DNA of 64,000 nucleotides, taken from positions 1-64,000 of the forward strand of contig JAUSPN010000045.1 of assembly GCA_030656555.1 (NCBI GenBank), read 5' to 3'. The notes below the pieces were generated by a model, which made no database searches, was not told where the DNA came from, and worked only from the letters and a program-made list of their open reading frames with translations. A program made the position numbers and the translations under genes. Within the stretch, counting starts at the first letter, position 1. Every line of letters starts with the position of its first letter. Below, piece by piece: positions 19,718 through 39,567 of the stretch. Origin of the DNA: Candidatus Desulfaltia sp. (GTDB lineage Bacteria; Desulfobacterota; Desulfobacteria; Desulfobacterales; ETH-SRB1).

Positions 19718-19760
19718 TTTCTTATTTCTCCTTTTCCCTCGGTTAGAGTTGTTGTTTAAT

Positions 19761-19910
19761 CCGTCAGATAAGTCTCCTGGCTTGCGGCAATTCCTACTCT
19801 CCACGCCTTCCCAATTTCCATTTTGGAAATCAGTGGCATTTAAGTGGGTTTTGTTCCGCCTACAGTTGCGGGGCAGCGCCGGCATCTGACCGGCTTCCTT
19901 GATCTGACAG
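19761..19910 (-). promoter_or_regulatory. Cobalamin riboswitch 1 (btuB-proximal)
   Basis: Minus strand: CTGTCAGAT..GGAAGCCGGTCAGATGCCGGCGCTGCCCCGCAACTGTAGGCGG..GCCACTG..GGGAAGGCG..AAGCCAGGAGAC..ATCTGACGG (closing P1 helix). Confidence 0.93.
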
Positions 19911-19915
19911 ATTGC

Positions 19916-19957
19916 AAAAAAAATCCCCAAACCGATATTAAATCGATCCGGGGATGT
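19916..19957 (-). terminator. Intrinsic terminator between the two tandem riboswitches
   Basis: Minus strand ATCCCCGGATCGATTTAATATCGGTTTGGGGATTTTTTTT. Confidence 0.85.
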
Positions 19958-20065
19958 CCCTTTTTTATCCTCCGAACTTCCGGCATATTTCAGTCCACGA
20001 AAGCTATGCCTTTGAAGACATTTAAAAAGCCAACTAATAAAAGCCTTTTAAAAGTCTTTCCGTCT

Positions 20066-20246
20066 GCTTAGGCAGGTCTTCTGACTCTCCCGCCTTTTTA
20101 ACAGCCTTCCCATTCCTGTCTTGCGAAACAGTGGCGTGTGTTGCTAAAAAGGTTCCCTCTCTAATAAAAAAGGGCGAGATTACAGCGGCGGGCCCGTCCC
20201 TGATTTACACAGGGTTCCCTATTAAGCTCAATATGAGCGCCTAAAC
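20066..20246 (-). promoter_or_regulatory. Cobalamin riboswitch 2 (distal, tandem)
   Basis: Minus strand TTTAGGCGCTCATATTGAGCTTAATAGGGAACCCTGTGTAAATCAGGGACGGGCCCGCCGCTGTAA...GCCACTGTTTCGC..GGGAAGGC..GAGAGTCAGAAGACCTGCCTAAG. Confidence 0.95.
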
Positions 20247-20253
20247 TATATTT

Positions 20254-20390
20254 GTAATCGTTCACGGTTGTCGGTTCACAGTTCACAGTTTTTTCAATGA
20301 ACTATGCAACGATTGAAGCATTTTGGATATTGATTTCAACCGTGAACCGATAACTGTAAACCGTAAACAGTTACCTATATCTTCTAAACT
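20254..20390. repeat. GTTCACGG-word inverted-repeat hairpin in the leader upstream of riboswitch 2
   Basis: gttcacggttgtcggttcacagttcacag ... aaccgtgaaccgataactgtaaaccgtaaacag; absent from the otherwise matching leader at 48320-48375. Confidence 0.65.
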
Positions 20391-24283: not shown

Positions 24284-25360
24284 TTATTTTGCAACCCTTT
24301 TTAACTTTTCGACAAGAATCATATTCTGTTCATGTTTTTTGACAGCTACACGAAAATAACGGTCTCCCATGCCCTGAAATGTGCTGCAATCCCTTATCAG
24401 CACCCCGTTTTTTGCCAGGCTGTCTCTAAGCTCCCTGGAATTTAAGCTGATTCTGTTATCCATGAACACGAGAAGAAAGTTCGCCACACTTTTATAGGTC
24501 TTAAGGCCTGGGATCTCACTTAGTGCCGCCATTAAAAACTCTCTTTCATCTGTTACATATTGCCTTGTATCCATGATATAGTCCCTGTCTGAAAGAGCAG
24601 CAGCAGCAGCTTTTTGTCCAAGAGAATTAACCGCCCACGGTGGTCTGGTTTCCCTGATTTTTGCAATACATGGCATGGAACCAATCACATAGCCTATCCG
24701 CAGGCCTGGGATAGCAAAAAATTTCGTCATCGATCTTAAAACTATCAGATTGGAAAACCTTAAAACCTCTTTTTTTACAGACCCCTGCTCTGCAAAATCT
24801 ATAAAAGCCTCATCAATTACGAATAATGTTTCCGCTTCCTGCGCACAAGCTATAATGCTGCAAAGATTTTCCTTTGACATAAGAACACCGGTAGGGTTTG
24901 CGGGATTGCAAAAATAGACGATATCAAAACCATCTCTTAATCGTTTACAAAGCCGGGCAATATCAACGGAAAAATCTTCTTTTTCATCTGTCTGGAAGTA
25001 TGAAACTTTTGTGCCGACCATCTTAAGGCCCTTTTCGTATTCACTGAAGGCAGGTGTAACAATAAGGGCTTTTTCAGGTTTGAACAGGATCGGTATCCAG
25101 TATATAAATTCGGTAGAACCGTTCCCCGCAAGGATATAATCACGACTAATGCCATGGTATTCCGATAACCCTGAAACAAGATCAAACGAATCAATATCAG
25201 GATAGTTCAATATGAAATCAAATTCTTTAATTATCGTTTCTTTTAACCTTGGCGGATAGTCAAGCGGATTGATACTTGCGCTGAAGTCGATGATTTTATC
25301 TTCATCGATTCCGTATCTTCGGGAAATCTCACAGATGTTTCCGCCATGATCTCTTTTCAT
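24284..25360 (-). CDS. cobD: L-threonine-O-3-phosphate decarboxylase / PLP aminotransferase (CobD/CobC-like)
   Basis: HGGNICEISRRYGI, DFSASINPLDYP, NPANPTGVL, LRSMTKFFAIPGLRIGY PLP lysine; follows cbiB; start at MKRDHGG. Confidence 0.88.
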   Translation of the reverse strand: MKRDHGGNICEISRRYGIDEDKIIDFSASINPLDYPPRLKETIIKEFDFILNYPDIDSFDLVSGLSEYHGISRDYILAGNGSTEFIYWIPILFKPEKALIVTPAFSEYEKGLKMVGTKVSYFQTDEKEDFSVDIARLCKRLRDGFDIVYFCNPANPTGVLMSKENLCSIIACAQEAETLFVIDEAFIDFAEQGSVKKEVLRFSNLIVLRSMTKFFAIPGLRIGYVIGSMPCIAKIRETRPPWAVNSLGQKAAAAALSDRDYIMDTRQYVTDEREFLMAALSEIPGLKTYKSVANFLLVFMDNRISLNSRELRDSLAKNGVLIRDCSTFQGMGDRYFRVAVKKHEQNMILVEKLKRVAK

Positions 25361-26304
25361 CATTGAACCATCCATAGAACGGCCATACAAACAAAGGTCA
25401 TCAAAAGAGATGAGAAAAACATGATAATCCATGCTTTTTTTACATCATCTCTGTCTATTTCTTTTATCTTCTCGCCAATCGTGGGCTTGTTGGTAACTTC
25501 TCCAAAATATTGAATCTTGCCGCCAAGCTGTATGGCAAGGGCACCGGCTGCCGCGGCCTCCGGTATGCCGCTGTTGGGGCTTGAGTGGTTTTGGCCGTCT
25601 CTTTGCATAATTTTCCAGGAATCCCTCCAGTTTAATCTCAGAATGAAAGCGACTATTATGATAATGAGTCCCGTCAGTCTCGACGGTATCCAGTTCCATA
25701 TATCGTCCATCTTTGCGGAAAACCAACCGATATCTCCGTATCGTTCGTTTTTGTATCCAACCATTGAGTCGAGGGTGTTGACCGCCTTGTATGCCATGGC
25801 CAGGGGTACTCCTCCGATGGCAAGGTAGAACATGGGAGCAATAATGCCGTCGGACAGGTTTTCCGATACCGTTTCAATAACGGCGCGCAGGATTTCCTCC
25901 TCGCTCAGGTTTCTCGTATCCCTTCCCACAATCATGGAAAGGTTTTTTCGTGCTTCTACAATATTTCCGTTGTTCAATGCATCGATCACAACTCTGCTTT
26001 CATCAAAGAGGGATCTTGTCGCCAGTGTCATGGAGGCGAGCAGGATTGTTATAATAGCGCCGAACCAGGGGTTGATAAAGTAACATCCTTTCACTATCCC
26101 CCAGGCTATGAAATAAACCGGGATAACGACGGCGAACCACAGAATAATCCCACTTTTCTTTTCATTGAGAAAGGAACAGCGACGAAATTTATCCTCCAAA
26201 AACCTTACGAATTTCCCGATGATGACCACGGGGTGTGAAAACCAGCGTGGATCGCCGATTATTATGTCCGTTATATAAGCTCCCAGGAAAATTGTCGGTG
26301 TCAT
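25360..26304 (-). CDS. cbiB: Adenosylcobinamide-phosphate synthase CbiB
   Basis: IIGDPRWFSHPVVIIGKFVRFLED, LSEEEILRAVIETVSENLSDGIIAPMFYLAIGGVPLAMAYKAVNTLDSMVGYKNERYGDIGWFSAKMDD. Confidence 0.95.
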   Translation of the reverse strand: MTPTIFLGAYITDIIIGDPRWFSHPVVIIGKFVRFLEDKFRRCSFLNEKKSGIILWFAVVIPVYFIAWGIVKGCYFINPWFGAIITILLASMTLATRSLFDESRVVIDALNNGNIVEARKNLSMIVGRDTRNLSEEEILRAVIETVSENLSDGIIAPMFYLAIGGVPLAMAYKAVNTLDSMVGYKNERYGDIGWFSAKMDDIWNWIPSRLTGLIIIIVAFILRLNWRDSWKIMQRDGQNHSSPNSGIPEAAAAGALAIQLGGKIQYFGEVTNKPTIGEKIKEIDRDDVKKAWIIMFFSSLLMTFVCMAVLWMVQ

Positions 26305-27170
26305 TATTTATATTTCTCTAAATAGCCCCGGGGGGTTATCATAAAGTCACCAGACTGAAAGGTGGTGCTGTTTCCCACAATGATAATAGTCTGCATGTCC
26401 ACATCATGACTGTCCATATTAGAAAGGGTAGAAATGTTTACCTTTTGACCCTCGCGCATAGCGGAAAAAACGATCCCTGCGGGCGTTTCCGGTTTTCTAT
26501 ATTTCAAGATGATCTCTTTTGCCGAGGAGAGCTGCCAGTTTCTTTTTTTGCTTTTGGGATTGTAAAGGATGATGACAAAATCACCCTGCGCCGCCTTTTC
26601 GATACGGTTTTGAATCACTTCCCAGGGGGTAAGAAGATCACTCAGGCTAACTGAAGCAAAATCATGCATCAGAGGCGCCCCCAACAGGGAAGCAGCCGCC
26701 GTAAATGCAGGAATCCCGGCAATAATCTCCAGGAGAACATCGGAGTTCCCCTCTTTTTTATCTTTCAGCCACGCTATATCGATATTTCGTTGAGCGGCCA
26801 TTTCCAGAACCAGACCGGCCATGCCATATACCCCTGAATCCCCGCCAGAGACAAGGGCTACCTTTTGACCCGCCATGGCTTCATCCAGTGCCCGATTGAC
26901 CCTTTTTATCTCGTCTCGCATCCCGGTAGAAATAATCTTTTTACCTTCTAAAAGTTCGCCAATCAATTCGATATATGTCCTGTATCCAATCACTATCTGA
27001 GCTCTCTGAAGAGCTTCTCTGGCCTTTGGGGACACATGTTCCAGGTCACCCGGTCCGGTTCCTACAATGTAGAGCTCACCCGGGCCACGGCCACGGTCAT
27101 GTTTTTTAATATCTGCTTGGGAATCAGTAGCCGTTCGGCCGCCGCCGAAAGAAGAACTGCCGCTTCGCAT
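26304..27170 (-). CDS. cbiH: Precorrin-3B / cobalt-precorrin-3 C17-methyltransferase CbiH/CobJ
   Basis: GELYIVGTGPGDLEHVSPKAREALQRAQIVIGYRTYIELI, ALVSGGDSGVYGMAG; overlaps cbiG 3' end. Confidence 0.92.
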   Translation of the reverse strand: MRSGSSSFGGGRTATDSQADIKKHDRGRGPGELYIVGTGPGDLEHVSPKAREALQRAQIVIGYRTYIELIGELLEGKKIISTGMRDEIKRVNRALDEAMAGQKVALVSGGDSGVYGMAGLVLEMAAQRNIDIAWLKDKKEGNSDVLLEIIAGIPAFTAAASLLGAPLMHDFASVSLSDLLTPWEVIQNRIEKAAQGDFVIILYNPKSKKRNWQLSSAKEIILKYRKPETPAGIVFSAMREGQKVNISTLSNMDSHDVDMQTIIIVGNSTTFQSGDFMITPRGYLEKYK

Positions 27171-28174
27171 ACACCCTCCGTACCTGTATATTTTTTGACC
27201 ATCTGAGATGGATTCTCGAGACCCTTTATAGAACTTAACTCTTTTGATGAAAAATAATGTATGGGAATATTCAATGTTTCTCCCAGCTTTATGAGGCCTT
27301 CTTCATCTTTTTTTAATTCTATCGTAGCCAGATTGCGAAGGCTCTTCATTGAAAGTTTAAATTTTTCGAAGACAGTTTCAAGACCGTCTTTGAGTTCCTG
27401 AAAATCCGTTCCCCGGTTGCACCCGATTCCTGCGACGAGAGAAGCAGGTCTCATAACGAGAAACCCTGCACGCGGAGTTGCGAGTTGATCACCAACATAA
27501 ACGGCTGGATCTTTTTCAATGTTTCCCCGAATTGGCAGAACATCCTCAAAAATCTCAATAAATGGAATGTTCTCATAAAAAGGGCTTATAACCTTCATGG
27601 GATCGATCAGATAAATTTTCTTGTTTTCCAGCAATGCTAAATTCAGTACCTTGATAGAATCCGGATTTTCTATACAGAGATCTTTCTCAACTGCCGCGGT
27701 ATCGAATGCCTTGACTCCGTGGACATCGGTGGCCGTGGTAATTACAGGCGTTGCCCCAAGAATTTTAGCGACTTTTTGAGCTAAGTCATTGGCGCCTCCA
27801 AGATGACCGGATAGGAGGCTTATTACATACTGTGCTTTTTCATCGATGACCACAACCGCGGGATCGTGTATTTTGTCCTGCAGCAGGGGTGCGATGACCC
27901 GTACCACGATCCCTGTGGCCATGATAAATATATGCCCTTCGTAATCGTGAAAAACTTTATGAACACGGGCCTGGAAATGCTGAAAACCTTTAAAAGGGGA
28001 ATCTCCGTTGATCCGGCGCTCCGGGCCATATCCATCAGCGTCTTTTAGTGAATCAACGATAACGAAGGCCTTTTTCAGGCCCTCTGTGGTCAGTGCCCAC
28101 ACGGCAAATCTGGCTCGGTTCCTTGTTGGTTGCTTCATGTAAGTTTCTTTACACGGACAAACAAGTTTGTCCAT
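27062..28174 (-). CDS. cbiG: Cobalt-precorrin-5A hydrolase CbiG
   Basis: GIVVRVIAPLLQDKIHDPAVVVIDEKAQYVISLLSGHLGGANDLA; C-terminal VAGIGCNRGTDFQEL. Confidence 0.93.
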   Translation of the reverse strand: MDKLVCPCKETYMKQPTRNRARFAVWALTTEGLKKAFVIVDSLKDADGYGPERRINGDSPFKGFQHFQARVHKVFHDYEGHIFIMATGIVVRVIAPLLQDKIHDPAVVVIDEKAQYVISLLSGHLGGANDLAQKVAKILGATPVITTATDVHGVKAFDTAAVEKDLCIENPDSIKVLNLALLENKKIYLIDPMKVISPFYENIPFIEIFEDVLPIRGNIEKDPAVYVGDQLATPRAGFLVMRPASLVAGIGCNRGTDFQELKDGLETVFEKFKLSMKSLRNLATIELKKDEEGLIKLGETLNIPIHYFSSKELSSIKGLENPSQMVKKYTGTEGVCEAAVLLSAAAERLLIPKQILKNMTVAVARVSSTL

Positions 28175-28207
28175 GCCACCGCCCCCAGCAATGAGGAAAA
28201 GTTTTTT

Positions 28208-28987
28208 TCATGGCTTTCTATATTTATGGGAAAAGTTTCTGTCATATAGCTTCGATTTCTTCTTAAGATCCTTCACACTTGCGTCGAGAAATTTTCCCAC
28301 AATGATGATGGCATGATCTTTGATGTTTTCTTTTCCGATCCGGTCGGCCATATCGCCTATACTGGTACGGATAATCTTTTCCTCCGGCTGGCTTACCCGA
28401 TAAGCTACAACGGCGGGAGCCGTCTTTCCGTAGCATTTTCCCAGAATGGAACATACTTCCTCAACCTTCGAGACACTAAGATAGATGGCCATAGAAGTCT
28501 TATGGGAGGCAAGCTTCTCCAGGGATTCATCTTCAGGAACCGGTGTCCTGCCGGCCACACGCGTGAAAATGAGAGACTGTGATATCTCGGGAATCGTGAA
28601 CTCCTGCCCCATGGCAGCTGCGGCAGCAAAGGCCGCCGTTACACCCGGAATGATTTTGAAAGGTATTCTTTCCCTTTCCAGTTCGGCAATCTGTTCCTGA
28701 ATGGCGCCATACAGACCGGGATCTCCGGTATGAAGACGAACAACCTTTTTCCCTTTCCCGTGTGCATCAACCATTTCAAAGACAATCGTCTCCAGGTCCA
28801 GGCCGGCGCTGTTTATCTTTCTGGTCTCTGGACGTGCCCAAGCCAAAACCTTTTCAGGAACCAGCGATCCGGCATAAATAATCAAATCGGCTTCTTGAAG
28901 CGCTTTCATGCCTTTTACTGTGATGAGTTCAGGATCACCAGGACCCGCTCCCACAAATAAGACGGGGTTCTTCTGTTTTCCCTCCAT
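28208..28987 (-). CDS. cbiF: Precorrin-4 C11-methyltransferase CbiF/CobM
   Basis: VLFVGAGPGDPELITVKGMKALQEADLIIYAGSLVPE, RLHTGDPGLYGAIQEQ; start at MEGKQKN. Confidence 0.94.
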   Translation of the reverse strand: MEGKQKNPVLFVGAGPGDPELITVKGMKALQEADLIIYAGSLVPEKVLAWARPETRKINSAGLDLETIVFEMVDAHGKGKKVVRLHTGDPGLYGAIQEQIAELERERIPFKIIPGVTAAFAAAAAMGQEFTIPEISQSLIFTRVAGRTPVPEDESLEKLASHKTSMAIYLSVSKVEEVCSILGKCYGKTAPAVVAYRVSQPEEKIIRTSIGDMADRIGKENIKDHAIIIVGKFLDASVKDLKKKSKLYDRNFSHKYRKP

Positions 28988-28989
28988 TT

Positions 28990-30210
28990 TCACACCTTTG
29001 TTCCTGTTATGATCCAGACAGGGTTCAGCGCCTCCAGTCTTTCTCCCCACGGCATTTCTTTCCCCCTGCTGACCTGAAGTTGAACTACATCCGTTCGTAA
29101 CCCCATTTCTGTAAATGTAGAACGAACACGCTCAATATTGTCAAGTAATATTGTATTTACAACCATTAAACCGTCACTCTTCATATAAGAAACCGCTTTT
29201 TTAATGATCTTTACAAGGTCTTTGCCTCCTCCGCCTATAAAGATTCGATCCGGCCTTGGCAGGTCATTTAACCCTTCCGGTAAATGCGAGTGAATGACCC
29301 GCACGTTCGTTACTTGAAACTGTTTTATGTTCTTCCTGATCTGTTCGACTCGCTCAGGTCTTTTTTCAACGCAAATGACCATCCCGTCCTTAACCAGCAA
29401 CGATGCCTCAATAGAAACCGATCCGCTGCCTCCTCCCAGATCCCACAGAACATGATGGGGAAACAAGCAAAGCCTGGCAATGGCAACGGCCCGCACCTCT
29501 GTCTTGGTAATTAAACCCTTTTCATGTGCATACGTATCTTCAGGCATACCAAAATAGGCCACGGGCATTTGCCGGCGCTGATTACCCGCCCTGATGATAA
29601 TAACAATATTGAGCGCTGCAAACTCTTTGCCGGCCGCTTCCTGGGGCGAATACCATGCAAAATGTTCATTCGAACTCCCTAAATTTTCAAAAATGCAAAC
29701 CCGCAAATTGTCTTGACCCATTTCGATCAGCACTCGGGCCAGCCAGGCAGGTGTTCTTTTAGAGTCGGTAAAAACCGCCACCTTATCCTTTTTTATGATT
29801 GCATCGAAAACATCTTTCTCTGATTTTCCCCCGTGAAGACTCACCACGACTGCATCGTGCCAGGAGAGCTTTATGCGGCTGAACGCGGCGGCAGCCACGG
29901 AAATGTTCGGATGTATAACAACATTGTCCTCCCCCAGATATTCCACCAAAGACGGCCCGATCCCGAAAAAATTCGGATCACCCGAACCAATAACCACTAC
30001 GCTCCTGTTTTGCATCCGGTCATTAATCTGTTCAAAGACCTTTTGGATATTTCCTGTTATCAGCAATTTTTCTCCGGGATAGTCCTTAAAATACCCGAGG
30101 TGACGCCGCCCTCCCACCAAGACGTCTGATTGCCGGATAATTTCTCGATGTCTCTCTGTCAGATCCTCAAAGCCAAGACCGATTCCGATTACATGTACAG
30201 GGTTCATCAC
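28990..30210 (-). CDS. cobL: Precorrin-6Y C5,15-methyltransferase, CbiE-CbiT fusion
   Basis: VHVIGIGLGFEDLTERHREIIRQSDVLVGGRRHL (CbiE); LFPHHVLWDLGGGSGSVSIEASLL (CbiT SAM motif). Confidence 0.93.
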   Translation of the reverse strand: MMNPVHVIGIGLGFEDLTERHREIIRQSDVLVGGRRHLGYFKDYPGEKLLITGNIQKVFEQINDRMQNRSVVVIGSGDPNFFGIGPSLVEYLGEDNVVIHPNISVAAAAFSRIKLSWHDAVVVSLHGGKSEKDVFDAIIKKDKVAVFTDSKRTPAWLARVLIEMGQDNLRVCIFENLGSSNEHFAWYSPQEAAGKEFAALNIVIIIRAGNQRRQMPVAYFGMPEDTYAHEKGLITKTEVRAVAIARLCLFPHHVLWDLGGGSGSVSIEASLLVKDGMVICVEKRPERVEQIRKNIKQFQVTNVRVIHSHLPEGLNDLPRPDRIFIGGGGKDLVKIIKKAVSYMKSDGLMVVNTILLDNIERVRSTFTEMGLRTDVVQLQVSRGKEMPWGERLEALNPVWIITGTKV

Positions 30211-30234: not shown

Positions 30235-31017
30235 TTATTCATTGCTTTCTGAACCTTCCGGTTGCCTCAAAATATATGTATCCATAAGCCAGCCTTTTTT
30301 CTTTTTAGCCTCTTTTCTTATCTTTTTAAGATCCTCGATTATATCTTTTAGCTTCCCCGAAAGCAGGATTTCATCATCAGTCCCCAGATATCCACCCCAA
30401 TAAATGTCAATATCCGTATCCTTAAAATGCTTAAAGGTAGAATAAGAATCCAACAATACTACAGTATTTATAACCTCAGCAGGTGAGTATTCTTTCAGTT
30501 TTCTGCCCGTTGTAATTACGATAGTCTCCCCTATACGGTTTAAGGGAATTTTATGCTTTTCTGCTAATATCTGAACGCTGGTTATTCCTGGTATCACCTC
30601 ATACTCAAAATTTACTGCTCCTTGTTTAAGGATATGCTGTAGAATTTCTAAATGTCCATCATATAGCGATGGATCGCCCCAGACAAGAAAGGCGCCGTTT
30701 TCACCATCTTTCATCTTGCTTTTAATCAATTCAGTAATAACTTCTGCTTTTTGCCCGCGCCATGTCTTAACCCCTTCCTTATATAACTTACCGCTTTTTT
30801 TACGTTCAGAAATTTTCGCAGTCACAACCCTGTATGTCCCTCTGTCCAGATATCTTTTTAATATCTCCTTTCTTATCTTTACGAGATCCTCATGTCCCTT
30901 CTTTTCCCTCTTTTCAAGAAGGAAGAATACATCTACTTTTTTCATTGTGTTTATCGCCTTGACAGTAAGATAATCAGGATTGCCAGGCCCAATTCCAATA
31001 AGATATATTTTCTTCAT
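30235..31017 (-). CDS. cobF: Precorrin-6A synthase (deacetylating) CobF-like C1-methyltransferase
   Basis: IYLIGIGPGNPDYLTVKAINTMKKVDVFFLLEK, GAFLVWGDPSLYDGHLEI, YEVIPGITSVQILAEKHKIPLNRIGETI. Confidence 0.85.
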   Translation of the reverse strand: MKKIYLIGIGPGNPDYLTVKAINTMKKVDVFFLLEKREKKGHEDLVKIRKEILKRYLDRGTYRVVTAKISERKKSGKLYKEGVKTWRGQKAEVITELIKSKMKDGENGAFLVWGDPSLYDGHLEILQHILKQGAVNFEYEVIPGITSVQILAEKHKIPLNRIGETIVITTGRKLKEYSPAEVINTVVLLDSYSTFKHFKDTDIDIYWGGYLGTDDEILLSGKLKDIIEDLKKIRKEAKKKKGWLMDTYILRQPEGSESNE

Positions 31018-31170: not shown

Positions 31171-31791
31171 TTATTTAAACTGTTCGCCTGCAAGATGGGC
31201 TAAGGCGTTTACCGCGCTGACGGCTGTCGAAGATCCCCCCTTGCGGCCACAATTCGTTATATAAGGGCATTTTGACCCTAAAAGTCTTTCCTTGGATTCA
31301 GCGGCATTGACAAACCCTACGGGAAAGCCGATGATCAGCGCCGGACGGGCATTATCCTCTTCCACGAGGTCAAAGAGACGCAGCAGAGCCGTTGGTGCGT
31401 TTCCAATAACGTATATTCCACCTTTCATCATATCGACTGCCAGCTCCACGGCGCTCTCGGCTCGTGTTTTTTGATTTTTTTCCGCCATGGAAACAGTTTC
31501 AGGATCATTTATCAAACAATAAACCTCACAACCGAAAGGATTCAGCAGCTTTTTATTGATGCCCGCCCTCACCATCTCCATATCTGTTATGATTCTACAG
31601 CCGGATTTGATGGCATTAATTCCCGATGCGATCGCCTCGGAGTGAAACCTGACCGATGACAGATAATCAAAGTCTGCTGTGGCATGAATCATTCGCCGAA
31701 CAACGTTCCATTGATCAGGCGGAAATCCGTGATCTCCTGCCTCGCTTTCAATAATACGAAAACTTTCCTGCTCGATCTCATTCGGTTTCAT
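31171..31791 (-). CDS. cbiC: Precorrin-8X methylmutase CbiC
   Basis: SFRIIESEAGDHGF, VVRRMIHATADFDY, IGNAPTALLRLFDLVEE, GFPVGFVNAAESKERL. Confidence 0.95.
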   Translation of the reverse strand: MKPNEIEQESFRIIESEAGDHGFPPDQWNVVRRMIHATADFDYLSSVRFHSEAIASGINAIKSGCRIITDMEMVRAGINKKLLNPFGCEVYCLINDPETVSMAEKNQKTRAESAVELAVDMMKGGIYVIGNAPTALLRLFDLVEEDNARPALIIGFPVGFVNAAESKERLLGSKCPYITNCGRKGGSSTAVSAVNALAHLAGEQFK

Positions 31792-31848: not shown

Positions 31849-32907
31849 CTACTTCAACATATTTACCCACAAAACAAAGATCAGGCCGACGATAATCAGA
31901 CTGCCGATTCTTAGAGCCTGAGTGGCCAGCATAAGATAGATACCTGTTCCCGGCCTGAAAATACCCATATAATAGGGCATCTGATGTCTAATGGCCCTTA
32001 CCGGCGCGGCAATAATGTTTCCCAGTAGAAGCGCTAAGACAACCTGGAAAAGATTGAGAGTTCCCACATCCAACATAGCTCCCGCTGCCGCATACCCTGA
32101 CGTCGATTCGGCCACCAGGCTGAAGATCACAACGGACATGGCCTCTATGGGGATAAAAGTACCGGTGATTACATTAGCCAACAATTTTCGTAACCAGAGG
32201 AAAAACCCCATGTCAGAAATCACTGCGATAATAAGATAGACAGGTAAAACAATTATAAGAATGCTGATTAATCGAGATCTGAACGTTTTACCCGTTTCCT
32301 TTAGCAAATCCTTCCATTTCTTCTTTATCGATTTCTTTCCATGGTAATATCCTGGCGATTCAGGGAGCATAAAACGCGAACAGGTAAGCACTGCTGCCAG
32401 CCTCAGTAAAGCTGCACAGAAAGTAAGAAGAAGATATATACCCCCTGCCCATTTCACAAGGGGAATCAGTATAAAAAATGTTGTTGGCAAGTGTAGGAAA
32501 AAAGAAGGGAAAGTATTCAAGAGGACACCAAGGGTCATTTCCCTCCGGTTTATACTGCCATCTTTATAAAAAGACATTAGCATGGATAGGGAGGCAGTGC
32601 CTGAGAAAAAGGCCGTGGAAAATACTGCCCCCATCTGCTGCGAAAGATGCCCCCAGCGCATAAATGGACGGGCCATAACAGCCAGACGATCTGTCCACCC
32701 CATACCTTCGATGATCTGACCGGCAAAGAGGCCAATGGAGATGAACACCGTCAGCCTTATCAGTGGCAGTATCAGCCTTTTCCAGAGGTTTATCGGGTCA
32801 TTGAAAGCTCCCGCGGCATCCATAGAGCCACTCATCAGGGCCATAAAGGCACACGCGGTCAGAAGGGGCAGAAGGATATAAAGAAAGAGAGGGAACTTCC
32901 TTTTCAC
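31849..32907 (-). CDS. Nucleoside-recognition (Gate)-type membrane protein in cobalamin operon
   Basis: Polytopic; FSTAFFSGTASLSMLMSFYKDG, LLNTFPSFFLHLPTTFF, ESTSGYAAAGAMLDVGTL; lies between cbiL and cbiC. Confidence 0.7.
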   Translation of the reverse strand: MKRKFPLFLYILLPLLTACAFMALMSGSMDAAGAFNDPINLWKRLILPLIRLTVFISIGLFAGQIIEGMGWTDRLAVMARPFMRWGHLSQQMGAVFSTAFFSGTASLSMLMSFYKDGSINRREMTLGVLLNTFPSFFLHLPTTFFILIPLVKWAGGIYLLLTFCAALLRLAAVLTCSRFMLPESPGYYHGKKSIKKKWKDLLKETGKTFRSRLISILIIVLPVYLIIAVISDMGFFLWLRKLLANVITGTFIPIEAMSVVIFSLVAESTSGYAAAGAMLDVGTLNLFQVVLALLLGNIIAAPVRAIRHQMPYYMGIFRPGTGIYLMLATQALRIGSLIIVGLIFVLWVNMLK

Positions 32908-33620
32908 CCTTGAATCTCCTTTTTGACCAAAAGGAGCGAGAGATAAGTGGGAACCATGTCAGGGCAGTCTTTCAGGTTCCGGGTTATTTTTTCCCCATCA
33001 AGTCCGCACCGGGATACAAGCACAGAATCGCCGGCCAGGTTCAGACGATTCAAGGTATCCAGTATCTCCCTGTAATTTTTGTATACCTTGAGCATGACCA
33101 CGTTCTGCGTATTGTCGATCACTTTCTTCAACTCCCGGGCTCCGAGAGCTCCTGAAATCACGGTAAAGGATTCCTCCCCCTCAGCTAAAACCCGGCAGGC
33201 GGCCGCAGCCGCGGCCTGGTATGAGGTAATGCCGGGGACTATCTTGACAGGAATATCAGGGTATGTCTCCTTTATGGTGTGCATAATGTAACCAAAGGTG
33301 CTGTAAATCATGGGGTCTCCAATGGTGATGAAGGCCGCGTCTTTCCCCTCTCTGAGGACACCGGCCACCCTTCCGGCATTTTCCTTCCATGCGGTTGAGA
33401 GTATCCCTTTGTCGCGGGTCATGGGAAACCCGAGGCGCACCACAGGAACACCTTTCTTGAGATGAGGAGCGACAATCTCCATAGCCAGTGAATAACTATT
33501 TTTGGTGGAGGCAGCAGCAAACACAACCGCTACACTGCTTAAAGTTTTCACGGCCTTCAAGGTAATGAGATCAGGATCTCCCGGGCCCACACCTATTCCA
33601 TACAGGATTCCGCTTTGCAC
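32904..33620 (-). CDS. cbiL: Precorrin-2 / cobalt-factor II C20-methyltransferase CbiL/CobI
   Basis: LYGIGVGPGDPDLITLKAVKTL, AAFITIGDPMIYSTFGYIMHTI, KIVPGITSYQAAAAAACRVLAEGEE. Confidence 0.93.
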   Translation of the reverse strand: MQSGILYGIGVGPGDPDLITLKAVKTLSSVAVVFAAASTKNSYSLAMEIVAPHLKKGVPVVRLGFPMTRDKGILSTAWKENAGRVAGVLREGKDAAFITIGDPMIYSTFGYIMHTIKETYPDIPVKIVPGITSYQAAAAAACRVLAEGEESFTVISGALGARELKKVIDNTQNVVMLKVYKNYREILDTLNRLNLAGDSVLVSRCGLDGEKITRNLKDCPDMVPTYLSLLLVKKEIQG

Positions 33621-33624
33621 TCTG

Positions 33625-35049
33625 TTATTCCTCCTTATAACTCAGCTCTTTTGCCTTTGAAATAATTTGAAAGAGTTCCTTGCCTGATACCGGGTTGTCC
33701 GGCAGAAACTCCCCATCCTTGTTCAGCTTCACGATATTTAACCCTGCCACTGTTTGAATTTGATTAAACAGTGGATGAGACTCATGAACGTCTTTTATAG
33801 CAACAGATTTCGCATCGGGAAAGTCAAAATACACAAACAGGGAGTACGCCATGTCACCCCTTTTTGCCGGCATATCCGGATGAAATTCATATTTGCCGAT
33901 ATCATCAAACAATCCTCTGGAAACAGCGGTCTCAATAAATTTATACTCATTTCCGGCATAATCCACATCCTTGAAGTCCCCATATTTATGTTTAATGTCT
34001 GGTTTTTTCAGGATATCATGCCTGTAATCCGGAGTCTTTAAGGGAATATTCATTATTTTAATGAACATTTCCGCGAATTCAGCCCTGGTAATGATCGATT
34101 TTTCTTTAAGCGGGGTTACATCATTGAATCTTTCGGGGTATAAAATTCTCCCTGTTTCATATATCCCGTCCAACAACCGCAGTGTGGGGCGCGATACGAT
34201 CTTTTCATCGATTATGTAAATTTTCCCCTCCCTTACCGCCTTGATGGCTCTAAACCCCCCTTCCTCCATAATACGTCTCACCTTTGCGCGATTCATGACC
34301 CCTCTCTGCGCAAGATAGACATCTATTTCCTTTGCATGGGATAAAATGCGCTCCTTGCCATAAGCCGCGATATTGGTTCCTCTTACAGCCTTTGCGTCAG
34401 CGGCGACATTTATGCCGCCTGCGCTCTTTAAGGCAAAGATGGCAATGGAGGATGGAGAGAATGTCTTCATCTTGCTGTGAATAGCCTCAAAGTAAACCTT
34501 TTTTCGCTCTGAGAGCGGGATCGCCTTTACAAGGGAATTGATCTCGCGAATCCCGGCCTGAAATTGCCCTATCATCTTCTGGGCCTGGATCTCCCTTCCC
34601 GTTAACCTTCCCAGATTCTTCCAGTATGAATAGACCTCCTCCATCGTGTTTGGCTGCAATGAAACGACCGTGATCCCCGCTTTTTGAAGCTTTGCTGTCA
34701 GGTTTTTGTATCCCTGTGCGATCATCGGTCTTATCAGGACCAGATCAGGACGGGCAGCGATGAATTTTTCCGCATCATCATGATAGCTGAATATCGGTTT
34801 GGTCATTGCCTGCGGAGGGTAGGCCTCATTTTCAGATACCCCTGTTATTTCCCGGTCAAGACCGAGAGAAAACAGATTCTCCGTATGCGCGCCATAGAGA
34901 GAAATTATCCTCATGAAAGGTTCTTTTACGGTAATTCTGCTCCCCGATTCATCAGTAAAACTATTACTCTCTCCCTTTCCAGAAGCAACAGAAGCTGCCG
35001 CTAAAACCGATATTATAACGACCAAAACAGCAAATATCTTTTTCCTCAT
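33625..35049 (-). CDS. ABC transporter substrate-binding protein (BtuF/FepB-like) with C-terminal SLH-like region
   Basis: Signal peptide; FTDESGSRITVKEPFMRIISLYGAHTENLFSLGLDREITGV; C-terminal ITRAEFAEMFIKIM..YGDFKDVDYAG..FHPDMPAKRGDMAYSLF..IKDVHESHPLFNQIQTVAGLNIVKLNKDGEFLPDNPVSGKELFQII. Confidence 0.85.
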   Translation of the reverse strand: MRKKIFAVLVVIISVLAAASVASGKGESNSFTDESGSRITVKEPFMRIISLYGAHTENLFSLGLDREITGVSENEAYPPQAMTKPIFSYHDDAEKFIAARPDLVLIRPMIAQGYKNLTAKLQKAGITVVSLQPNTMEEVYSYWKNLGRLTGREIQAQKMIGQFQAGIREINSLVKAIPLSERKKVYFEAIHSKMKTFSPSSIAIFALKSAGGINVAADAKAVRGTNIAAYGKERILSHAKEIDVYLAQRGVMNRAKVRRIMEEGGFRAIKAVREGKIYIIDEKIVSRPTLRLLDGIYETGRILYPERFNDVTPLKEKSIITRAEFAEMFIKIMNIPLKTPDYRHDILKKPDIKHKYGDFKDVDYAGNEYKFIETAVSRGLFDDIGKYEFHPDMPAKRGDMAYSLFVYFDFPDAKSVAIKDVHESHPLFNQIQTVAGLNIVKLNKDGEFLPDNPVSGKELFQIISKAKELSYKEE

Positions 35050-35843
35050 ACCGAAGCCCCTCTTTTAAATACCACCTGTTTTGAATTTGAATACCGGTCA
35101 AAATATATCCTGGACTCCACTTTAAAGACATCTTTTACATTCTGTTCGTTTAAAACATCATCTATATTCCCCCCTGAAACCATTCTGCCTGATTTCATAA
35201 AGATCAACTCATCACAGTAAGCCGCGGCCAGGTTCAGGTTATGCAGCGCGGCAATAACAGTTCTCTTTTTCAGCCTCACACCATCCGCCACGATATCCAG
35301 AATGTTTAACGTATACTGGATGTCCATATTGGATGTGCCTTCGTCCAGTATCAAAACAGGCGTGTCCTGGGCAAGGGCCCTTGCAAAAACGACCCGCTGT
35401 TTCTCTCCCCCGCTCAGTTCCGTAATATATTTATCCTTGAACCTGTTAATCTCCATCTTCTCCATTATTTCATCCACGATCTTTAAGTCTTCGGTTGAAG
35501 GAGAAGCAAACCTCGGGATATGGGGGTGCCGACCCATAAGGACTATCTCTTTGACAGAAAAGGGGAAATTAATATAAAAATCCTGGGGAACAAGGGCTAT
35601 CTCCTTTGCCAGTTTTCTTCTCGTATATTCCTTTATGTCTCGTCCCAGGTATTTAATCGTTCCTGATTCGGGCGCTTTGTTTTGAATCAAAAGATCGAGA
35701 AAGGTCGTTTTGCCGCATCCGTTAGGCCCGACAATACCATAAAATTTCCCCTGTTCTATGGTTAAAGAAAGATTATCCAGTGCCCTGTTTTTCCCGTAAC
35801 AAAAAACGATATCCCTGACTTTAAAAACCGTTTTTCTATCCAT
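35046..35843 (-). CDS. ABC transporter ATP-binding protein (FecE/BtuD-like)
   Basis: GPNGCGKTTFLDLLI, LSGGEKQRVVFARALAQDTPVLILDEGTSNMD. Confidence 0.9.
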   Translation of the reverse strand: MDRKTVFKVRDIVFCYGKNRALDNLSLTIEQGKFYGIVGPNGCGKTTFLDLLIQNKAPESGTIKYLGRDIKEYTRRKLAKEIALVPQDFYINFPFSVKEIVLMGRHPHIPRFASPSTEDLKIVDEIMEKMEINRFKDKYITELSGGEKQRVVFARALAQDTPVLILDEGTSNMDIQYTLNILDIVADGVRLKKRTVIAALHNLNLAAAYCDELIFMKSGRMVSGGNIDDVLNEQNVKDVFKVESRIYFDRYSNSKQVVFKRGASV

Positions 35844-36897
35844 CGGTTCTTCCTATACGTCTCTTTCTGAAAATATAGCAGAAAAAGGGGCCGCCAATAA
35901 GAGCAGTCAAAACGCCTATCGGTATTTCCCTTGGCAAAACAGCCCTTGTTATTGTATCAGCACACAAAAGGAGGATAGCGCCCACCAGGACAGAGGCAGG
36001 AATCAACCTTCTGTTATCCGGTCCCACAAAGAAACGCATTAAGTGGGGAATGATAAGGCCCACAAAACCGATAATACCTGAGACCGAAACACATACGGCA
36101 GTGATCAGAGATGCGGTTATCAGAAGTATTACCCTTACTTTATTTGTCTCAATACCCAGAGAACCGGCAGACCGGTCGCCCAATGACATTATATTCAGAT
36201 CACGGGCAAAGAAGATGCAGATTGAAAATCCGATCGATACAAACACTAAAGTCAAAAAAACATCGGCCCAGGTCTTTGAACCAAAACTGCCCATCAACCA
36301 GAATATTATAATTGAGACCTGTTCATCGGCCACATATTTTAAAAAGCTTATCCCCGCGGATAATATTGCCGCGACAATAATACCGGATAATATCAAAGTG
36401 TGGGAAGATGCCTGGCCATTGAAAGAGGATAAAAACATCACCGCAAAAAGGGTGGCAACCGCTCCGATAAACGCAAATAACGGCACAGAATAAATCCCCA
36501 GAAAGGTTATATCGAGAAGCAAAGCGATGGACGCGCCAAAAGCGGCCCCGGCAGATATCCCCAGCGTATATGGATCGGCTAAAGGGTTTAACAAAATGCC
36601 CTGAAAGATTGCTCCCGCGATTGAGAGGCCCGCGCCCACGATGGCGGCAGTCAGAATACGCGGCAACCTGACCTCCGATACAACGTATGGGAAAACCGTG
36701 TCTATTCCGTTTAACAATTCATGATTGCCGGTTATTTTAGAAACTATTATCCTTATCACCTCAAAGGGGGATATCTTTAAGTATCCCATCCCTGTTGAGA
36801 GTATAACCACAATAAAAAGAAAGACCGCCAGCAAAAGGGTTTGGCCCCCCACTCTCATGGAGGCAGAAGGCGCAAACCCATCTTTTTTCGTCATCAT
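35836..36897 (-). CDS. FecCD/BtuC-family permease
   Basis: VRLPRILTAAIVGAGLSIAGAIFQGILLNPLADPYTLGISAGAAFGA, GFVGLIIPHLMRFFVGPDNR. Confidence 0.92.
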   Translation of the reverse strand: MMTKKDGFAPSASMRVGGQTLLLAVFLFIVVILSTGMGYLKISPFEVIRIIVSKITGNHELLNGIDTVFPYVVSEVRLPRILTAAIVGAGLSIAGAIFQGILLNPLADPYTLGISAGAAFGASIALLLDITFLGIYSVPLFAFIGAVATLFAVMFLSSFNGQASSHTLILSGIIVAAILSAGISFLKYVADEQVSIIIFWLMGSFGSKTWADVFLTLVFVSIGFSICIFFARDLNIMSLGDRSAGSLGIETNKVRVILLITASLITAVCVSVSGIIGFVGLIIPHLMRFFVGPDNRRLIPASVLVGAILLLCADTITRAVLPREIPIGVLTALIGGPFFCYIFRKRRIGRTDG

Positions 36898-37878
36898 CTA
36901 CAGCCCAATCTGATTATCCCGGGCAACATCTTTCAGGTGCTGAATGAAGATCTTTCCGATTTCAGAACTTTCACCGAGTCCATGGATTACGGTGACAACC
37001 TTAATCCCCTTCGACTTGATGGTTGTCTTCCAGGAATCATCTTCATCGCCGGCCATGTCGTTATTGGCATGGTCGCCGGCAACTATCATTAAAGGTTTTA
37101 ACACAACGTTTCTTATCCCGTCTTTAACCAGACCCGCGACAACATAATCAAGGGAGGGAAAGCCTTCAACTACGCCCACATATGCGGGTGTTTCAGGATA
37201 CATTTTTCTTAAGGTTTCCTGAAATTCTATATACGCTCCTGTAGATAACACCTCATTCCCGTGCCCCATGTAAACCAGGGCCGCTTTATTTTTCCTGGCC
37301 AGCTCTACGTCGGCCTTAAGCGCTTTTGCGGCAACTTCCAGGTCTTTATAGTAAGGGTATTCGTCTCCCTTCTTCCCCAACAACGGCCTGCCCAGAACTA
37401 TTTTCTTGAAAGGCTTATGCTTGGTTCTAACCGCAGCAATAGAATCCAGGCCTTCCACACACGACTTCAAATCCAGGTACTCCTCACCTTCAAAAACATG
37501 GGTGGGCTGTACAATGATTGTAGTATAACCTTCATCTTGCAGGCCCGTTATGGTAGCAAGGGGTCCTTTAACATACAGGATCTCTTCGGAAATATTTTTG
37601 TTTTCCTTCAGGAATTTCTCATCATTCTGCCTTGCATGCCAGATGTTCCTGATAATGTAAGAGGTAAAAGCCAGTTTTACCTTCACCCCGGGAAAGGCAT
37701 CCTGAACCTGTTTTTGAATACCTGTAATGGCCGCCATCGCCGAAGGATAACTTGTGCCGAACTGGGCCAGGACAATCGCTTTCTTCTCCTTTTGAGCCTC
37801 CATTGCAAAAGAAGAAACAACCAGTGTCAGAGACATGGCTATCACCGCAAAGATCAAACCTAACTTCTTCATAATCAA
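36898..37878 (-). CDS. cbiK: Exported sirohydrochlorin cobaltochelatase, CbiK-like (CbiKP type)
   Basis: Signal peptide MKKLGLIFAVIAMSLTLVVSSFAMEAQ; AIVLAQFGTSYPSA, VQPTHVFEGEEY, YMGHGNE, MIVAGDHANNDMAG. Confidence 0.9.
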   Translation of the reverse strand: MIMKKLGLIFAVIAMSLTLVVSSFAMEAQKEKKAIVLAQFGTSYPSAMAAITGIQKQVQDAFPGVKVKLAFTSYIIRNIWHARQNDEKFLKENKNISEEILYVKGPLATITGLQDEGYTTIIVQPTHVFEGEEYLDLKSCVEGLDSIAAVRTKHKPFKKIVLGRPLLGKKGDEYPYYKDLEVAAKALKADVELARKNKAALVYMGHGNEVLSTGAYIEFQETLRKMYPETPAYVGVVEGFPSLDYVVAGLVKDGIRNVVLKPLMIVAGDHANNDMAGDEDDSWKTTIKSKGIKVVTVIHGLGESSEIGKIFIQHLKDVARDNQIGL

Positions 37879-37898
37879 AACCTCCTTTAGATTTACCC

Positions 37899-39068
37899 TT
37901 AAAACTCTATCGCCACTCTGGCAAAGACCTCATCCACAGTATCATCAACGGTACTGCCGGCTGCCTTTTCGTAGTTGCTCCTGCGATACTCAAGCATAAG
38001 TGTGGTTGTAAAATTATCTTTTTCAAAGAGTTTATAGTTTGCGCCTACTGAGTACCTGTTCTCCAGACTTCCGTCCTGATTGCCGCTTTTGTCATCGTCA
38101 AAGGCCTCATACCTGAGTGCTATCTCTAAGGGATCTATAACCTGACATGCGATTGCGCCAAACCAGGCCGATTCCTTGTATTCCTTATTGTCTGGCGCAT
38201 TCTTTTCCCTTTCGAGAGCGGCAACGTACTCGGCATCGAAGGTAAAGATACCGATCTGGTATTCTATAGTTCCGCCTGCCGTCTCATTGCGGCTTCCCTG
38301 TCCGGGTTCCGAATCAAAATAGGTACTGAGATTCAACCCCTCTATCGGCGCTATGGAAACATTTAAAACATAGGAATCAACATTATCCGTCGGATCGGGA
38401 TTGGGAGCGGGATCTCTTGCCCAACCGTAACTTGCTCCCGACAATTTATCCGCCAGTACCTCACCCTTGTAAACTGTAGCTGACATATCAAGCCCCAGCA
38501 AATCGGGTGTAAATCCTATGGTGGCGCCTGATTTGGCAACCTCATAGCAATCCTTGGTGATGGGATCACTGATTAAATGGCTGTTGAACACGCCAAAGGG
38601 CTGGCCTCTCTTGCCGCCTACAAAATACAGGGGAAACCCCTCTTTCTGTATGGTAATCGTCGCCTCATCCCAGAAGACCCTGTCATTAGTACCATCATCA
38701 AGGTTTTCGCCCTTGAGAACGAAATTACCAGTCACCCACTCGTGAAATTTTGCCTCGACCCCAAGCTGCACTGTTCCGATATCGAGGTTAGAGGTGGAAT
38801 CGCTGTTTGCAACTGTAGTACTGCTCGGATCCTTATAGGTATAATCCAGTTCAATGGCTCCGGTTATGGTTATATTTTCACTTAGTTTACCGAGTATATC
38901 CTTCTGTTCCTTTTCCTGCTTCTCAACCTTTCCTTCAAGTTGCTCAATGCGCTGCTTTAACTCCTCCAATTCGCTCTGGGCTGAGACAGAACTCAGCGGC
39001 AGAAAGAAAAAGAAACAGAAGAGGATTGAAAATAATACAAACAAATTGATTTTGTTCTTGCCAAGCAT
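37899..39068 (-). CDS. Outer-membrane porin resembling LbtU family, with coiled-coil N-terminus
   Basis: Signal peptide ..LPLSSVSAQ; SELEELKQRIEQLEGKVEKQEKEQKDI coiled coil; ITITGAIELDYTYKD; alternating beta-strands and terminal FARVAIEF. Confidence 0.65.
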   Translation of the reverse strand: MLGKNKINLFVLFSILFCFFFFLPLSSVSAQSELEELKQRIEQLEGKVEKQEKEQKDILGKLSENITITGAIELDYTYKDPSSTTVANSDSTSNLDIGTVQLGVEAKFHEWVTGNFVLKGENLDDGTNDRVFWDEATITIQKEGFPLYFVGGKRGQPFGVFNSHLISDPITKDCYEVAKSGATIGFTPDLLGLDMSATVYKGEVLADKLSGASYGWARDPAPNPDPTDNVDSYVLNVSIAPIEGLNLSTYFDSEPGQGSRNETAGGTIEYQIGIFTFDAEYVAALEREKNAPDNKEYKESAWFGAIACQVIDPLEIALRYEAFDDDKSGNQDGSLENRYSVGANYKLFEKDNFTTTLMLEYRRSNYEKAAGSTVDDTVDEVFARVAIEF

Positions 39069-39189
39069 AAAAACCTCCTTTCCTCCCTCGAGGAATGTGG
39101 TGAAAGTTCAGGTTTCGTCCAGGTCTCAACGAAACCGACAAAATCCGTCCAGAACCTCTCAATTCTCACCCCCTTTCTTCATAACTCAT

Positions 39190-39229
39190 AAAAAAAATCC
39201 CCGAACCGATATGAAATCGACCCGGGGAT
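39190..39229 (-). terminator. Intrinsic terminator between B12 riboswitch and porin gene
   Basis: Minus strand AATCCCCGGGTCGATTTCATATCGGTTCGGGGATTTTTTT. Confidence 0.85.
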
Positions 39230-39289
39230 TGCCCTTTTTAATCCTCAGATTCTTAACGCTTAGCCCCCTGTCCACGAGGTTGCCAAACA

Positions 39290-39463
39290 ATGTTTCAGGC
39301 AGGTCTTCTGGCTCTCGGATCATCCTACTTGCCGCGCCTTCCCACCCAGCTTAAACTGGACAGTGACATTTTTACGGCGTTCGTCCCCGATTACAGCGAC
39401 GGGCTCGCTCCCGATTTTCACGGGATTCCCTTTTGTGCCTTAATGGCACCCGAAACTAAGTGT
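39290..39463 (-). promoter_or_regulatory. Cobalamin riboswitch 3 (upstream of porin-cbiK-ABC operon)
   Basis: Minus strand AAAAGGGAATCCCGTGAAAATCGGGAGCGAGCCCGTCGCTGTAATCGGGG..GTCACTG..GTGGGAAGGCG..GAGAGCCAGAAGACCTGCCTGAAACA. Confidence 0.95.
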
Positions 39464-39567
39464 TTATGCTACTCATTTCCTCGAATATGTCAATGAAAAA
39501 ACATAACTACTCGGGTTCACAGTTCAAGGGTTCAAGGTTAGAGAGCCCTTATTGCTGTTTTTATATT

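Follow-up and report, generated by a model that had tools for sequence, protein, structure and literature searches.

A stretch of 64,000 nucleotides from Candidatus Desulfaltia sp. (assembly GCA_030656555.1, contig JAUSPN010000045.1, positions 1 to 64,000; hereafter the window) harbours on its minus strand a B12 riboswitch followed by genes for an LbtU-type outer-membrane porin, an exported class II chelatase (CbiK), and the permease, ATPase and substrate-binding protein (SBP) of an ATP-binding cassette (ABC) importer (Table 1). Intergenic distances from the porin gene through to that of the SBP are 26, 0, -8 and -4 nt, and 4 nt separate the SBP gene from the following cbiL. The first-pass annotation, made from the sequence alone, had named the riboswitch and terminator upstream of the porin and the tightly packed same-strand genes correctly, but had ended the operon at position 33625. 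The transcription unit continues past this point with genes for CbiL, a Gate-domain protein, CbiC, CobF, CbiET, CbiF, CbiG, CbiH and CbiB; the cassette is the head of a longer corrin operon, and the terminator is likely the expression platform of its riboswitch. B12 riboswitches were also found at all ten Desulfobacterales loci with exported CbiK that were searched and at seven of eight others, Clostridia included. We tentatively, and at somewhat less than even confidence, read the cassette as a B12-repressed cobalt-capture module in which cobalt would be inserted into a tetrapyrrole in the periplasm and the product re-imported.

Table 1. Features of the riboswitch-controlled cassette and the downstream corrin genes
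Feature	Position in window	Strand	Basis
Adenosylcobalamin (B12) riboswitch aptamer	39281..39468	-	RF00174, 107.5 bits, 5.7e-26 (covariance model on the window; gathering score 31.5)
Intrinsic terminator	39196..39230	-	15-pair stem followed by T run; retained in fold
LbtU-type outer-membrane porin	37899..39068	-	NF033652, 120.6 bits (cut-off 90); Pfam Porin_4
CbiK, class II chelatase of 324 aa including a signal peptide (exported)	36898..37872	-	PF06180, 260.6 bits (cut-off 26.2)
FecCD-family ABC permease	35836..36897	-	PF01032, 322.7 bits; nearest NCBIfam family BtuC, below cut-off
ABC ATPase	35046..35843	-	PF00005; nearest NCBIfam family corrinoid ATPase PRK09536, below cut-off
SBP carrying SLH domains at its C-terminus and the conserved His55	33625..35049	-	Peripla_BP_2 and two SLH
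CbiL, factor II C20-methyltransferase	32904..33620	-	TIGR01467, 238.7 bits (cut-off 163)
Membrane protein with Gate domain; candidate cobalt permease, probably of CbtX type (COG3366)	31849..32907	-	PF07670, 27.4 bits (below 29.6)
CbiC	31171..31791	-	PF02570, 276 bits
CobF-type C1 methyltransferase	30235..31017	-	TIGR02434, 315.5 bits (cut-off 195.8)
CbiET, CbiF, CbiG, CbiH, CbiB (remaining corrin operon)	25360..30210	-	

The chelatase belongs to PF06180 and scores far below the cut-off of the equivalog family SiroCoChCbiK (NCBIfam NF047852; 169.4 vs. 400 bits). Its start was corrected from the TTG at 37878 given in the first-pass annotation to the ATG at 37872, located behind AAAGGAGG. The signal peptide predicted earlier stands: by a hydropathy rule and by eye, the N-terminus MKKLGLIFAVIAMSLTLVVSSFA is a typical one. 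In the window protein and its close relatives a Met directly follows the predicted cleavage site, and the signal peptide was lost in three relatives, from which it could be argued that some of the CbiK is retained or produced in the cytoplasm, where it would serve biosynthesis. This we consider very unlikely, as no Shine-Dalgarno sequence precedes the inner ATG, most other exported CbiK proteins lack such a Met and those of Clostridia are lipoproteins; a cytoplasmic isoform starting at the inner ATG was rejected since it lacks the Shine-Dalgarno sequence and would not be general.

Best PDB matches of the window CbiK are the structures of Desulfovibrio vulgaris CbiKP (2xvx, 2xvy and 2xvz); Porphyromonas gingivalis FetB and Salmonella CbiK were matched as well. 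Residues are given in the CbiKP numbering (H96, H154, E184 and H216), which agreed with the PDB chain; H154, E184 and H216 are the cobalt ligands and H96 the haem ligand of CbiKP, while the assignment of H103 follows from the title of the 2017 report by Lobo, which reportedly names two histidines, and from alignment to the PDB chain. A His, a Glu and a His of the window protein align with H154, E184 and H216, leaving the metal site intact, and this triad is complete in 118 of 121 exported homologues, including all 18 of the window's clade. The haem positions are occupied by Leu (His96) and Glu (His103); within the clade His96 is present in two of 18 members and His103 in none, as opposed to His96 in 32 of 43 members of the CbiKP clade. 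A quick tree (119 rows) resolved exported CbiK proteins into three groups (window type, CbiKP type and Clostridial lipoproteins) apart from a purely cytoplasmic clade; the window protein was placed outside the CbiKP clade in an exported clade of its own comprising 18 rows (SH-aLRT 100), and one CbiKP-type lineage had lost the signal peptide. Many CbiKP-type chelatases (L086, L089, L105, L106, L109 and others) carry behind the signal peptide a Gly/His-rich stretch (AGHGH...), perhaps a metal-binding N-terminus, which is absent from the window CbiK. Tandem CbiK-CbiK fusions of 577-715 aa, exported and in several cases lipoproteins, were observed at the Clostridia-type loci L015, L018, L019, L029, L034 and L046.

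Acquisition of haem, either by a cassette resembling P. gingivalis Iht/Fet or through the haem-binding role proposed for CbiKP, has in its favour that the solved structures closest to the window CbiK are those of FetB and CbiKP, that FetB/IhtB are linked to haem iron or metal exchange, and that the SBP fold is also similar to that of haem SBPs. The FetB/IhtB system (PDB 9b86) likewise pairs an exported CbiK homologue having the same metal-site residues with a metal/tetrapyrrole uptake locus, but is a haem system, in contrast to the window with its B12 riboswitch, porin and corrin genes. Haem transport is highly improbable here in view of the missing haem histidines, the B12 control and co-transcription with corrin genes, and a porin of metal-linked type.

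The genome to which the window belongs (2.73 Mb, 100% complete) yielded this CbiK gene as its sole match to PF06180 and PF01903, and no match to PF02514. A cytoplasmic CbiK or CbiX carrying the flux, named earlier as the finding that would speak most directly against an extracytoplasmic step, is thus not detectable in this genome, nor is CobN; cobalt may therefore enter the precursor outside the cytoplasm. The same state recurs. Among 146 genomes of the order, exported CbiK was called by script in 51 and, following hand curation, in 54 (L170 and L120 were reclassified as cytoplasmic, which gives both kinds to G148 and G155, and the set was extended by G061, G093 and the window's genome). At least 90% completeness applied to 44 of the 54; 19 of these lacked cytoplasmic CbiK/CbiX, 18 of them safely (G177 has a CbiK fragment of either kind at a contig end). 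CbiC was present in 16 of the 18 exported-only genomes (exceptions: G081 and G101), and CobN in none. Ten Clostridia-type genomes, for which completeness figures are lacking (G013, G014, G016, G018, G020, G022, G023, G024, G029 and G035), encode CbiC and have lipoprotein CbiK as their only CbiK, without CbiX; nine of them are also devoid of CbiM. Four of these corrin makers (G018, G023, G024 and G035) gave no match to the CysG-N/Met8/SirC model.

The porin belongs to the LbtU family, in agreement with its earlier naming. Its AlphaFold2 (AF2) model, calculated from a 3-row alignment only, has a predicted local distance difference test (pLDDT) value of 34, and a PDB sequence search with it gave no useful match. 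A second porin of the same genome, 43% identical, is encoded in a NikK-NikMLQO operon, where it separates NikK from NikM (G000:C13:9528-10523), and a porin located inside such an operon or beside NikK occurs in nine genomes, the other eight being G061, G123, G054, G177, G097, G072, G160 and G111. These nickel operons have an energy-coupling factor (ECF) importer where the window has CbiK and FecCD; operons with built-in porin were seen at L192 (4268-9307, corresponding to G000:C13:8267-13306), L193, L194, L200, L202 and L203. In G054, three near-identical porins are found beside Nik genes, FeoB and a CbiK-FecCD operon, respectively; the Nik-linked and CbiK-linked porins of G177 are sisters (100/100), and the window porin groups with Nik-linked porins of its own genus. 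Neighbours of the porin were CbiK, Nik, NicO or Feo genes at 14 of the 18 loci examined, and no siderophore genes were recognised at any of the 18. The siderophore function for which LbtU was described was rejected for this porin on the basis of these nickel, Fe(II) and CbiK contexts. Since one porin appears to have been recruited repeatedly by different metal importers, it is best read from gene context as a pore for Co2+ or transition metals; of the capture role assigned to it earlier, cobalt as cargo would fit the contexts of its paralogues, while a channel for tetrapyrroles or siderophores does not. A metal pore in turn suggests that the CbiK cassette acts at the outer membrane as a cobalt system, and a family whose name refers to siderophores appears to constitute a set of outer-membrane pores for nickel, Fe(II) and cobalt. 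A paper on nickel in cable bacteria leaves LbtU unmentioned. CbiMNQO was rejected as the cobalt importer of the genome: its sole CbiM-family gene resides in the NikK-porin-NikMLQO operon.

The importer genes scored far below the BtuCDF equivalog cut-offs (BtuC 295 vs. 461, corrinoid ATPase 251 vs. 537, BtuF 33 vs. 234 bits), even though BtuC and the corrinoid ATPase are the NCBIfam families nearest to the permease and ATPase. In counts that ignore kinship, FecCD genes neighbour exported CbiK more often than cytoplasmic CbiK, both at the loci of the collection (41 of 46 vs. 4 of 10) and at those of the order (9 of 18 vs. 3 of 26, all three of the latter lacking a signal peptide within a clade whose other members are exported). 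The SBP had been named correctly, without mention of its two C-terminal SLH domains, which are also present in Clostridial relatives and would tie the protein to the cell wall. Its His55 lies in the motif ISLYGAHTEN (family motif ISLY(G/S)AHTE), and this His is kept in 29 of 30 relatives, whereas the BtuF-type SBPs compared have SL.P..T(E) and lack it. In the AF2 model (pLDDT 90), the His is located just past an early strand of the N-lobe, where it may serve as ligand of a metal or ring. Foldseek retrieved 4m7o first, followed by iron, haem and BtuF SBPs, so that the fold does not differentiate the ligand.

Capture of metal without chelation, with CbiK acting as a periplasmic Co2+ chaperone that feeds either the SBP and FecCD or the CbtX-type permease, would agree with porin paralogues at metal loci, with the conserved CbiK metal ligands, with the near absence of CbiM from the ten exported-only Clostridia-type genomes and with the restriction of the window's genome to a Nik-type ECF system. 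Characterised FecCD systems mostly carry chelates, corrinoids or haem, molybdate being an exception, and conservation extends to the entire catalytic triad, as would be expected if catalysis were retained; a chaperone role is accordingly rather improbable.

Further downstream in the window, a second, ordinary BtuF-BtuC-BtuD set was identified together with tandem B12 riboswitches, a TonB-dependent receptor and a CobO-like gene. With a separate BtuB and BtuFCD set in the window, corrinoid uptake is served by other genes. This bears on a salvage function, in which exported CbiK would load or exchange metal in tetrapyrroles or early corrinoids from outside for import by FecCD, while de novo insertion would proceed in the cytoplasm, either through a Met8/SirC-type protein or enzyme-free, with Co2+ entering via CbtX. 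The genome does encode a Met8/SirC-type protein and the operon a CbtX-type gene, many relatives have a separate cytoplasmic CbiK or CbiX, and FetB, a relative of CbiK, was proposed to swap porphyrin metals. We nonetheless judge salvage to be somewhat unlikely: dedicated corrinoid uptake genes already exist, CbiL comes directly next in the operon, and some exported-only Clostridia are without a Met8/SirC-type match.

CbiL acts on cobalt-factor II, the cobalt-loaded product, and is the first enzyme to do so. For the periplasmic cobalt-capture module, the parts, export signal, metal ligands, B12 control, co-operonic corrin genes and sole CbiK/CbiX/CobN-type chelatase can be read from the sequence, and the simplest model compatible with them would take the following course. 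Shortage of B12 would switch on the porin, exported CbiK and the importer. Co2+ would cross the outer membrane through the metal-type LbtU porin, while sirohydrochlorin would pass outward from the cytoplasm; exported CbiK would bind Co2+ and load the sirohydrochlorin-type tetrapyrrole in the periplasm. The SBP with its conserved His, together with FecCD and the ATPase, would then bring the cobalt-tetrapyrrole, their putative substrate, back in, where CbiL, encoded by the next gene, would methylate it. Extracytoplasmic cobalt insertion would be a plausible biosynthetic route, and the earlier proposal of an early B12 step outside the cytoplasm gains partial support from the sole exported chelatase, its intact metal residues and the recurrence of the exported-only state in corrin makers.

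Several observations weigh against this course. No sirohydrochlorin exporter was identified, and the presence of a CbtX-type permease gene in the operon points to entry of Co2+ into the cytoplasm as well. The main reservation is a 221-aa Met8/SirC-type protein, encoded next to HemA elsewhere in the genome, which could insert cobalt in the cytoplasm; such proteins can be bifunctional (yeast Met8p) or dehydrogenases only (SirC), which sequence cannot tell apart. Spontaneous insertion of cobalt is likewise possible. The congener G061 also has a cytoplasmic CbiK, and loss of the signal peptide was seen for the CbiK adjoining the FecCD cassette in G053, G134 and G170. About half of the order's exported-CbiK loci with enough flanking sequence have no FecCD neighbour, and the tests of this association disregard shared ancestry.

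B12 synthesis is conventionally taught as a cytoplasmic process. That bacteria of the Desulfobacterales type and Clostridia perform de novo cobalt insertion outside the cytoplasm, with sirohydrochlorin as endogenous chelator, exported CbiK as chelatase and FecCD for re-uptake, is a doubtful but possible generalisation. If true, exported loading and re-uptake would take the place of a cobalt importer and of a cytoplasmic chelatase alike, and the cell would use a biosynthetic intermediate as its own chelator of cobalt; this would account for the separation of cobalt from nickel and iron. Since the discovery of CbiKP, the export of a cobaltochelatase by sulfate reducers has been a standing question; exported-only genomes render it testable by a single gene deletion.

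Parts of the arrangement have been described before, contrary to the novelty implied earlier: for Desulfovibrio, CbtX and a cbiK-btuCDF-cbiL cluster under B12 control had already been predicted (Rodionov 2004, PMC545781), and the Gate-domain protein holds the position relative to cbiK that CbtX has there. CbiKP itself is a solved and characterised protein (PMC4063343), and further work on the D. vulgaris protein (Lobo 2017) is cited in PMC8587615. The window shares with the D. vulgaris CbiKP cluster exported CbiK, B12 riboswitch, FecCD-type ABC importer, CbiL and a nearby CbtX-type gene; it differs in the LbtU-type porin in front, the SLH-bearing SBP and a CbiK that lacks the haem histidines and belongs to another exported clade. 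A Desulfovibrio relative (L011) retains a cytoplasmic CbiK, unlike the window's genome. In Bacteroidota, HmuS/CobN-like de-chelatase loci (PMC12583661) likewise involve a chelatase-type enzyme in tetrapyrrole uptake, but this class is unrelated to CbiK and has no member in the window's genome. The literature searched yielded neither the porin of LbtU type ahead of the cassette nor its connection with nickel, iron and cobalt importers, and likewise no exported-only census, no CbiK clade in which haem histidines are mostly lacking, no SBP with the His signature and no paper on a "cobaltophore".

The corrin operon contains CobF, a member of an aerobic-pathway family, in an anaerobic operon with CbiG. 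No CbiD was found in the window's genome, and the congener G061 carries CbiD where the window has CobF, which looks like a substitute for it; L003 likewise has CobF. The tandem B12 riboswitches (window positions 19750-20259) are ~107 nt apart and lie 5' of the TonB-dependent receptor gene. In G061, locus L113 (6954-15543) comprises a B12 riboswitch, a TonB receptor, small membrane proteins, a 1313-aa CobN-like protein, the cytoplasmic CbiK and ExbB/ExbD/TonB; with its CobN-like gene behind a B12 riboswitch it resembles the HmuS/BtuS loci of Bacteroidota, and the window has BtuB and BtuFCD there instead.

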